The position numbers and the translations under genes were made by a program. Positions 52,767 through 60,481 of a DNA stretch of 64,000 nucleotides are shown here, one piece after another. Position 1 is the stretch's first letter. Each line of letters opens with the position of its first letter. The stretch is from a bacterium (lineage in GTDB: Bacteria > Vulcanimicrobiota > Vulcanimicrobiia > Vulcanimicrobiales > Vulcanimicrobiaceae), in NCBI GenBank assembly GCA_021832345.1, contig JAKBKY010000005.1, positions 1 through 64,000 of the forward strand. Reading direction: 5' to 3'. The notes under the pieces are model-generated. The model was not told where the DNA came from. It saw only the letters and a program-made list of their open reading frames with translations, and searched no databases.

Positions 52767-52918
52767 CCGTCAGAGCCGTGCAGCGGTTCACCACGGCCTT
52801 GGAACGCCCGTCGGGCCGGCGCGGGGCGTCGTCGAGCAACGCCGCACCCTGCAACCACCCTATTGGCGCAGGTGTTGCGAGGTATCATCAACAGGCGAAA
52901 GGAGGTCAGATAAAACAT

Positions 52919-53422
52919 ATGGCCGTTGCAAAGGGACGAAAATCCTTGGCGAATGCAACCAAGACATTGAAGGTCGGGGACGTCGCGCCGGAGATCAATC
53001 TGAAGTCTCACACAGGCGAGGAGTTCAAGCTCTCCAACGTCAAAGGGAAGAAGAACGTTGTTGTCGCGTTCTTCCCATTCGCATTTACCCCCGTTTGAAC
53101 CAGTCAGATGCCTTCGTACGAGGAGAACCTCGATCGTTTCGAAGGCTATGATGCCCAAGTTGTGGGCATCTCGATCGACAGCGAACACGTCCTTCGGGCG
53201 TGGGCCGAGTCGTTAGGCGGCATTACGTATCCGCTTCTCGCGGATTTCTATCCGCATGGGGAAGTCGCGACGAAGTATGGCGTACTGCGTCCGGAAGGAA
53301 TGGCGGAGCGAGCGGTTGTCATTATCGACAAGGCCGGTACGGTACGGTACATCGACGTGCATGACATCGGGGAGCAACCTGACGAAGCGCAGATCTTCGA
53401 CGAACTCCGTAAACTCGGTTAG
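52919..53422 (+). CDS. Selenocysteine-containing peroxiredoxin (in-frame TGA read as Sec)
   Basis: A 167-aa AhpC/TSA-family peroxiredoxin that reduces peroxides. It runs through TGA 53096-53098 at codon 60. The frame reads NVVVAFFPFAFTPV, then TGA, then TSQMPSYEENLDRFEGYDAQ. In cysteine homologs this is FTPVCTSQM, so the TGA replaces the catalytic (peroxidatic) Cys and nothing else. Ordinary calling gives a truncated 5' part and a separate frame from ATG 53108 that has no ribosome site. The start is ATG 52919 with AAAGGAGGTCA upstream. A SECIS-like hairpin follows the TGA. The whole protein contains no Cys, so no resolving residue exists. A nonsense mutation is the alternative but would have to hit exactly this codon. 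The sel genes are not in the window. Confidence 0.85.
53110..53146 (+). promoter_or_regulatory. Bacterial SECIS-like hairpin in the peroxiredoxin mRNA
   Basis: Starting 11 bases after the TGA, GCCTTCG (53110-53116) pairs perfectly with CGAAGGC (53140-53146). Inside, CGAGG (53119-53123) pairs with CCTCG (53128-53132) around loop AGAA (53124-53127), which has a G at its second position. The apical loop begins 26 bases after the TGA, within the range usual for bacterial SECIS elements bound by SelB. The fold was made by eye. Confidence 0.65.
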
Positions 53423-53426
53423 GCTG

Positions 53427-53462
53427 ACGCGAGTGGCTTTGCTTCGGTAAGGCTACTCGCGT
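53427..53462 (+). terminator. Long hairpin between converging genes
   Basis: ACGCGAGT (53427-53434) and ACTCGCGT (53455-53462) pair perfectly. The inner GGCTTTGC and GTAAGGCT continue the stem with some G-T pairs around a TTCG tetraloop, giving about 16 pairs in total. It follows the peroxiredoxin stop by 4 bases and overlaps the last codons of the converging zinc-ribbon gene, so it can end transcripts from both sides. The T tract is weak. Confidence 0.65.
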
Positions 53463-53644
53463 TCTGCGCGCACCGATGCAATCGCGCCATTCTCATCAAA
53501 CGTCACATCGAAGACCAGCGGCCGGCAACACACCGGGCACTCTTCAATGAAGTGCTGCCGCCGACCGCCGGTGGGGTCGGCCCCCACCGCGCAGTGCGTA
53601 CCGCAGACGGGGCACGCGAAGAGGGCGTCGTCATCGAGCGGCAT
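53453..53644 (-). CDS. CPXCG-motif cysteine-rich zinc-ribbon protein
   Basis: A 63-aa protein with two knuckles, [19 protein letters not shown] and [20 protein letters not shown]. This is the family with an N-terminal CPxCG and a second CxxCCRP motif. It is probably a small zinc-binding protein of unknown role. I start at ATG 53644 ([13 protein letters not shown]); its first bases overlap the end of msrA. The stop lies inside the converging terminator hairpin. Confidence 0.82.
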
Positions 53645-54137
53645 CGAGGTTGCCGATATGGCATGCGCCACCGTGCTTTTCGAAGTAACGCTGGTGATAC
53701 TCTTCCGCAGGCCAAAACGCCGATGCTTTCACGATTTCGGTCGCGATCGGCTGCGAGAACCGTGGTTGCGCGCGTGCCAGTGAGCTACGCGCCGCTGCGT
53801 CTTGTTCGCCGTCATGCACGAAGATCGCCGAGCGGTATTGCGTGCCGGCGTCGGGCCCCTGGCGATTGCGCTGGGTCGGATCATGGATCTGCCAGAATGC
53901 GTCCAGAAGCTGCTCGTAGCTGACGATGTGCGGATCGAATCGGAGCTCCACGGCCTCCGCATGTCCGGTGGTGCCGCTGCACACTTGCCGGTAGCTCGGC
54001 TGCTCAAGCGTTCCCCCGGTGTAGCCGGCGACGGCCTCGAGGACGCCGGGTAGCTGACGAAAAGCGGCTTCAACGCCCCAGAAGCAGCCGGCGGCAAACG
54101 TTGCGGTGGAGGTGGTGGTTGGCGCAGTCATAGTCAT
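53631..54137 (-). CDS. msrA: Peptide-methionine (S)-S-oxide reductase MsrA
   Basis: A 168-aa MsrA of standard length that repairs oxidised methionine. The active site is [20 protein letters not shown], with Cys18 as the nucleophile. [22 protein letters not shown] and [12 protein letters not shown] follow. The C-terminus has one Cys (GGACHIG) that can serve as a resolving residue. ATG 54137 has GAGAAG upstream. It lies between dacB and the zinc-ribbon gene in a leftward run. Its closeness to the peroxiredoxin suggests a small oxidative-stress neighbourhood. Confidence 0.95.
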
Positions 54138-58917: not shown

Positions 58918-59026
58918 ACGGTGCGCGTTGCCCACGCGGCTCCAAGGGTCCTGGTGACGCGCGCAAGGGCCGGGGCGGGTGAGAGCGGGCAAGCCCCCAG
59001 AGCGAGGGCGTCGAAAGGCTCTGCCG

Positions 59027-60481
59027 ATGCATCGCTTCTATCTCGGTATTGGGTCGAACCTCGGAGATCGGCAAGCCAATATTCTCACCGCGCTTCAGCG
59101 GTTGCGTGCGCAGGTCGAACTCGTCGCGGTCTCGGCGTTCTACGAGAGCCCACCCGCCGAGGGCGCCGAAGGGCCAGCCTTCCTCAACCTGGCGGTGGAG
59201 GCGCGCGCGCCGCTCGATCGGCAGGGTTTTGAAGCGTTTGCCCGGCGCGTCGAACTCTCGGTCGGCCGGGCGAGTGCCCGCCCGCTCGCGGCGCGATCGA
59301 TCGATATCGACGTTCTCGTCTATGACGGCATCGCGCATCCGCGCTTGGCCGAGCGTTGGTATGTGCTCGTCCCCCTCGCTGAGATCGCGCCGGATTTCGT
59401 CGACGAACGTACCGGCCGGAGGCTTGCCGATCTCGCCGCCGCCTATCTCGGCCGTCAGGTGCATCGTCGTGAGCGAGCGCTTCATTTTTCCACCGATCGA
59501 CAGGATGAATCGCCCGAAGTGCGACTCTCGCTTAATCGAGCCGGGGTGGCGAAAGTGCGCCGCATCGTGCATCTGAACGTCGATGGGCGTGAACGCGTGT
59601 ATTCGGGCGAGTTCTCGATGGTCGCGGACCTCGCGCCGGATAAATCCGGGGTGCATATGTCTCGCTTCGCCGAGATTCTGGAAGAGGCGACGTTGGACGT
59701 GCTCTCGCGCAGCGACGCTCCCGAACGCGTCGAACGTCTCGTGGCGGCGGTGGCGCATGAGATCGTTTCCAGCCAACGGGCGGTGCGCGCCGACGTGCGG
59801 CTTCGTGCCGACTTTGGGCTCGAGCGCTGGACGCCGGTCAGCGGGAAACGCGGCGAAGAGACCTATACCTTGCTTGGGATCGCGCATGCCGACGAAGCCG
59901 GTGCCCGGTGCGTCATCGGGGTGGAAGCCGAAGGCATGACCGCGTGTCCCTGTGCGCAAGGGATGATGCGCGAGCATTCCTTACGCGAACTGCTCGAATC
60001 CGGCTTCGATGAGGCCACTGCGCAACGCGCGCTCGATGCGCTGCCGGTTGCCACGCATAACCAACGCGGTCGCGGGGCGCTGTTGATCGGCGTGACCGAC
60101 GACGCGGCAGCGCATGCGGTGCGCGCTGAGGACCTCGTCGAAATTGTGGAGAGCTCCATGTCGAGCGAAACCTACGATCTTCTCAAGCGTCCGGACGAGT
60201 TCTTCGTCGTCAACAAAGCCCATCACAATCCGAAGTTTGTTGAAGACGTCGTGCGCGGGATACTAGCGCGCTCGCTCGATGTCTACTCGGATCTTGGCGA
60301 GCAGACGTTCCTCTTCGCAAGTCAAGTGAACTACGAATCGATCCACAAACACGACGCATTTGCCGAAGGGTTTGGGACCTTCGGTGAGTTTCGCCGGGAG
60401 CTGCGGGAGGGCCGCCGGCCGGCAGGGCGCACGGATCTGGCGGCGTGGCTGGGAACGCGCCCGTCGCGAGTTATCGCCTAG
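59027..60481 (+). CDS. Fusion of HPPK (FolK) and GTP cyclohydrolase IB (FolE2)
   Basis: A 484-aa bifunctional folate enzyme. Residues 1-160 are HPPK: MHRFYLGIGSNLGDRQANIL at the start, YESPPAEGAEGPAFLNLAVE, and the signature RPLAARSIDIDVLVYDG. Residues about 165-484 are FolE2/MptA-type cyclohydrolase: GVHMSRFAEILEEATL, EGMTACPCAQGMMREHSLRE (catalytic Cys), LPVATHNQRGRG and NKAHHNPKFVEDVVRG with the metal His. The first half pyrophosphorylates hydroxymethyl-dihydropterin and the second opens the GTP ring at the start of the pathway. ATG 59027 has AAGG 9 bases upstream. There is no frameshift at the junction. Its 3' end overlaps the converging peptidase gene. Confidence 0.92.
   Translation: MHRFYLGIGSNLGDRQANILTALQRLRAQVELVAVSAFYESPPAEGAEGPAFLNLAVEARAPLDRQGFEAFARRVELSVGRASARPLAARSIDIDVLVYDGIAHPRLAERWYVLVPLAEIAPDFVDERTGRRLADLAAAYLGRQVHRRERALHFSTDRQDESPEVRLSLNRAGVAKVRRIVHLNVDGRERVYSGEFSMVADLAPDKSGVHMSRFAEILEEATLDVLSRSDAPERVERLVAAVAHEIVSSQRAVRADVRLRADFGLERWTPVSGKRGEETYTLLGIAHADEAGARCVIGVEAEGMTACPCAQGMMREHSLRELLESGFDEATAQRALDALPVATHNQRGRGALLIGVTDDAAAHAVRAEDLVEIVESSMSSETYDLLKRPDEFFVVNKAHHNPKFVEDVVRGILARSLDVYSDLGEQTFLFASQVNYESIHKHDAFAEGFGTFGEFRRELREGRRPAGRTDLAAWLGTRPSRVIA

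Follow-up and report, generated by a model that had tools for sequence, protein, structure and literature searches.

Peroxiredoxins with selenocysteine (Sec) in a TxxU motif constitute a listed selenoprotein family (PMC9312934, PMC13188914), for which the enzyme of Eubacterium acidaminophilum is cited in PMC13188914 as the experimental type case. An earlier survey recorded 91 such proteins in 78 organisms (PMC5029168), and the sequence-only reading of the DNA studied here, which had described them as known from a few anaerobes, was too narrow in that respect. In Sulfobacillus thermotolerans, a protein called selenocysteine-containing PrxU was reported to be upregulated under ore stress (PMC7409299). 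A homologue from Sulfobacillus harzensis (L078) is present in the set compared below.

The solved protein nearest in sequence to the peroxiredoxin described here is AhpE of Mycobacterium tuberculosis (Rv2238c; 1.8e-27), a 1-Cys enzyme. AhpE uses mycothiol and mycoredoxin.

The gene of interest is situated in a stretch of 64,000 nt (the window) from the genome of a little-known soil bacterium, assigned through matches of a relative in its family to the phylum Eremiobacterota (G000; 2.34 Mb, 11 contigs, 98% complete). It almost certainly encodes a one-selenocysteine, AhpE-like peroxiredoxin, in which UGA codon 60 would be decoded as Sec by means of a downstream SECIS element. Sec-containing peroxiredoxins are of an already known kind; what was not found in the literature searched is their presence in Eremiobacterota and the apparent dependence of peroxide defence on Sec. 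That search returned nothing relevant linking Eremiobacterota or WPS-2 with selenocysteine; subscription journals were mostly outside it, and novelty is not proven. The finding would add Eremiobacterota to the phyla in which complete Sec machinery accompanies a peroxiredoxin built on Sec.

The peroxiredoxin reading frame

The features of the gene, all on the + strand, are as follows.

52898–52906 (+), Shine-Dalgarno-like sequence AAAGGAGGT, preceding the start codon (from the sequence)
52919–53422 (+), predicted AhpE-like 1-Sec peroxiredoxin gene, 167 aa, stop TAG (from translation, profile, homologues and structure model)
53075–53077 (+), Pro53 of PxxxTxxU, invariant in orthologues (from the alignment)
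53096–53098 (+), TGA, putatively read as Sec60, the peroxidatic residue of PxxxTxxU (from translation and orthologue codons)
53309–53311 (+), Arg131, invariant in orthologues, which aligns with the conserved Arg in the active site of AhpE (from the alignment)

With TGA rendered as U, 52919–53422 translates as MAVAKG...FPFAFTPVUTSQMPSY...RKLG, and the TGA at codon 60 is the sole internal stop of the 167-residue frame. The AhpC-TSA profile matched the read-through protein at 7.7e-36 over residues 19–145, a match that spans the TGA, and the mechanically called ORFs on either side merge into a single AhpC/TSA domain. The proposal of one continuous peroxiredoxin across the TGA, made from the sequence alone, is thereby confirmed, as is the accompanying claim that the protein is free of Cys: the translation contains none. 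A gene of this kind would be cut short or broken in two by standard gene calling, and the organism would therefore be recorded without an intact peroxiredoxin.

The presence of mechanical ORFs on both sides of the TGA could also be taken to mean that termination at this codon is functional and that there are two polypeptides, one an N-terminal product of 59 residues and the other begun at ATG 53108, the first in-frame ATG past the TGA. A strong Shine-Dalgarno sequence precedes ATG 52919, but none was found before ATG 53108, in agreement with the earlier statement that the part after the TGA has no ribosome site of its own. The split would, moreover, fall in the active site; the structure model packs the two halves into a single compact fold; and the Cys-containing orthologues are single proteins. 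The split-gene reading, which is very unlikely on this evidence, was rejected. Sec genes usually show some termination at UGA, and a truncated by-product is likely here too. Scanning for promoters (sigma-70-like sites only) and terminators gave nothing above shuffles, with no promoter-like site upstream of the gene, and plasmid records contained no relative at 1e-25.

Relationship to AhpE and to known Sec peroxiredoxins

In the predicted structure (pLDDT 93.2) residue 60 lies close to where helix 58–69 begins, and the best solved match to the structure model was again M. tuberculosis AhpE (E 8.6e-19, TM 0.87 over the query). The PxxxTxxC motif of AhpE and its active-site Arg align with the window protein, P53, U60 and R131 being invariant in the orthologues and residue 57 being T or S. 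The window protein differs from AhpE, to which it is approximately 33% identical, in that Sec replaces the peroxidatic Cys and the chain is entirely free of Cys.

It has in common with the TxxU family the PF00578 domain and the Sec of PxxxTxxU. It nevertheless lies outside both curated Sec peroxiredoxin models, with scores of 57.9 bits for PrxU (NF040737; cut-off 270) and 48.9 bits for Prx-SUH (NF045827; cut-off 298). Judged by sequence and predicted fold, the protein belongs with the AhpE-like 1-Cys peroxiredoxins and not with the curated PrxU family. Within the AhpE-like group it is predicted to represent the one-Sec type (one-Cys/one-Sec type); no conserved second (resolving) Cys was found in the orthologues.

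Sec peroxiredoxins of Anaerolineae, Bacillaceae, Acidobacteria and Sulfobacillus (L056–L090) are approximately 50–63% identical to the window protein, and almost every one has its TGA at the corresponding codon, but they form branches separate from it, in which the motif reads, for example, AWTPVUTSQ or DWTPVUGAQ. The latter motif was observed in the close Sec peroxiredoxins of Bacillaceae such as Neobacillus and Litchfieldia (L062–L074).

Codon 60 in related genomes

Orthologues 60–82% identical to the window protein were found among 60 related genomes, nearly all of them with a single in-frame TGA. Where the position was read in this set, TGA occupied the peroxidatic codon in 14, the window included, and the Cys forms had TGC (L016, genome G014) or TGT (L018, genome G016) at codon 60. 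Across 149 genomes of the phylum, 36 orthologous places were identified: 33 with an in-frame TGA, two with Cys and one with TGA plus a frameshift. The TGA was position-checked in 30 of those 33 places (the 14 above and 16 newly fetched), always at codon 60, the other three being known from the TGA count alone. In the frameshifted case (L025, genome G007) the Sec codon is intact and the frameshift is situated shortly downstream, perhaps reflecting an assembly error, or else decay.

A wider comparison of 101 homologues from several phyla, a set that includes five paralogues taken as outgroup or distant members, gave TGA in 55, TGC in 23 and TGT in 23 at the peroxidatic column, and no other codon. 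It is apparent that relatives have TGA or Cys at this site and never a random codon, which bears out the earlier claim that the TGA replaces the catalytic Cys. The homologue tree requires at least eight changes between Sec and Cys, against a shuffled mean of about 34, a rough count because many branches are weakly supported. This natural Sec/Cys series, with its 33 TGA places and two Cys places, offers material for asking why selenium is retained in the peroxide enzymes of some bacteria and abandoned in others.

An otherwise intact frame broken by a single TGA might, of course, represent a pseudogene or a sequencing error, that is, a Cys codon changed to TGA in the window genome only and a dead gene. 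Chance is excluded as the source of the TGA, because it recurs at 33 of the 36 orthologous places across the phylum. Dozens of species, each assembled independently, agree in having TGA at codon 60, and the TGA is found only where relatives have Cys. In every pair compared, moreover, dN was much lower than dS both before and after the TGA; for the window gene and L010, dN and dS were 0.168 and 1.157 upstream, and 0.107 and 1.109 downstream. These comparisons argue for purifying selection on the two parts of the gene alike. Since relatives share the TGA and the sequence beyond it has a dN well under its dS, a dead or misread gene is refuted, and its probability is negligible.

RNA structure downstream of the TGA

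If codon 60 is read as Sec, a SECIS element would be expected within the gene, and one candidate was identified by folding and by the recoding analysis described here.

53110–53146 (+), putative bacterial SECIS stem-loop, outer stem GCCUUCG ... CGAAGGC, apical loop approximately 28 nt after the UGA

The window RNA from the UGA onward folds at −20.5 kcal/mol for 60 nt (z −3.3); the hairpin begins approximately 14 nt into the element. To part RNA from protein selection, 300 synonymous recodings of the 18 codons that follow the UGA were made for each gene, with codons drawn from the pooled usage of each group. The native fold of the UGA plus 54 nt was then compared with the recodings. For Sec genes the mean z was −2.26 in Eremiobacterota (n=18) and −2.28 in other organisms (n=37), whereas for Cys genes it was −0.19 (nearby, n=6) and −0.41 (delta-type, n=35); the sequences are related, so these scores are not independent. 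Sec genes have extra local RNA stability and Cys genes do not, the pattern that a SECIS demands. In both L016 and L018 the downstream hairpin signal is lost.

Counting of hairpin pairs was weakly supportive, with five of 14 pairs changing on both sides, no better than shuffles. RNAalifold found no common structure in the diverse homologue set, probably because the register of the stem differs between lineages.

Selenocysteine machinery and the genetic code

The sequence-only reading had implied a selenocysteine system in this lineage, and all four components were found in the window genome. With these genes present, and with only TGA or Cys at codon 60 in relatives, each of the refuting outcomes open to computation that the reading had named failed to appear. 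A tRNA-Sec with anticodon tca is located at C3:753057 (69.5 bits; cut-off 47). The selA and selB genes adjoin at C3:740374–743555, with a SelA match of 504.7 bits and a SelB match above the cut-off, and selD is at C11:105264–106187 (358.8 bits). SelD itself appears to contain Sec, with an in-frame TGA at the catalytic site in the motif ACAGUASK (L132, about 5157, minus strand).

Among the 60 related genomes, selA was above the cut-off in 51, and it was present in 14 of the 15 genomes with a Sec peroxiredoxin, the exception being a genome that is 63% complete. Both Cys-form genomes (G014 and G016) keep selA; a Cys codon is therefore not a sign of loss of the system.

The frame is also open if TGA is simply a sense codon, as it would be were UGA reassigned genome-wide (to Trp, Gly or Cys, for example). 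TGA is, however, the ordinary stop of msrA, of an S13 carboxypeptidase gene and of a PMI-like gene, all of them Pfam-supported and in the same window, and because TGA ends these neighbouring genes the code is not altered. The full Sec system and the confinement of the in-frame TGA to the redox Cys site also argue against reassignment, which was refuted by the ordinary stops and must be considered extremely improbable. When the window was scanned for further TGA codons that could be read through, with coding-like composition on either side, many places emerged, mostly antisense to real genes; inspection of these by eye for a redox motif yielded none besides 53096.

In the mechanism proposed for decoding of codon 60 as Sec, a ribosome reaching the UGA would encounter the in-gene hairpin downstream, which would hold SelB with Sec-tRNA(Sec), and Sec would be inserted in place of termination. 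The conserved Pro, Thr and Arg would activate the Sec selenolate for attack on H2O2 or an organic peroxide, giving a selenenic acid. Since the chain has no Cys, an outside reductant would be needed, and an external thiol or thiol-protein would reduce the oxidised Sec. We infer that Sec is inserted, that the protein acts as a peroxidase and what kind of reductant recycles it.

Peroxide defence in the genome and its relatives

PF00578 was detected at five places in the window genome. The four besides the present gene have CxxC motifs (WATWCPPC, FATWCPHC, WASWCYPC and GTWCPSC), which identify them, by sequence, as proteins of the TlpA/ResA kind and not peroxiredoxins. The window protein thus appears to be the only recognisable peroxiredoxin of this 98%-complete genome. 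No haem catalase, KatG-type peroxidase or glutathione peroxidase was found in it by the profiles tried. Because the other PF00578 proteins are of TlpA/ResA type and the profiles for other peroxidases came up empty, the recognisable peroxiredoxin capacity of the genome would rest on Sec.

Three AhpD-like CMD proteins are encoded in the same genome, one of which has an in-frame TGA in the motif CTYUGAMH (L173, C3:592482–592724). This motif matches known CxxU AhpD-like selenoproteins (PMC9312934), and L173 is likely a second thiol-peroxidase selenoprotein of the genome. In related genomes, 13 further peroxiredoxin-like genes with TGA (L138–L150) were read, and in all 13 the TGA is at a redox-active position; their motifs, from several other subfamilies, include DTPGUT, ATPGUT, FTQGUT, FTFVUPTE and TWUPRC.

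It may be that the thiol-based peroxide defence of this lineage has moved largely to selenium, the only peroxiredoxin and one AhpD-like protein being predicted Sec enzymes here, and relatives having predicted Sec at the peroxidatic site in several further peroxiredoxin subfamilies (PrxQ/BCP-like, AhpC-like); we put the chances of this at about even. If true, the oxidative defence of a terrestrial phylum that includes aerobes would hang on the supply of selenium. The sole cultivated member of Eremiobacterota is described in PMC9758169 as an aerobic anoxygenic phototroph.

Neighbouring genes

Convergent to the peroxiredoxin gene, at window positions 53453–54137 on the minus strand, are genes for a CPXCG zinc-ribbon-like small protein and for msrA. 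The latter, another oxidative-damage enzyme next to the peroxiredoxin, has an ordinary Cys. Farther along, at 58979–60481 (+), a single ORF fuses two folate enzymes, an HPPK domain and a FolE2-type GTP cyclohydrolase (GCHY-1).
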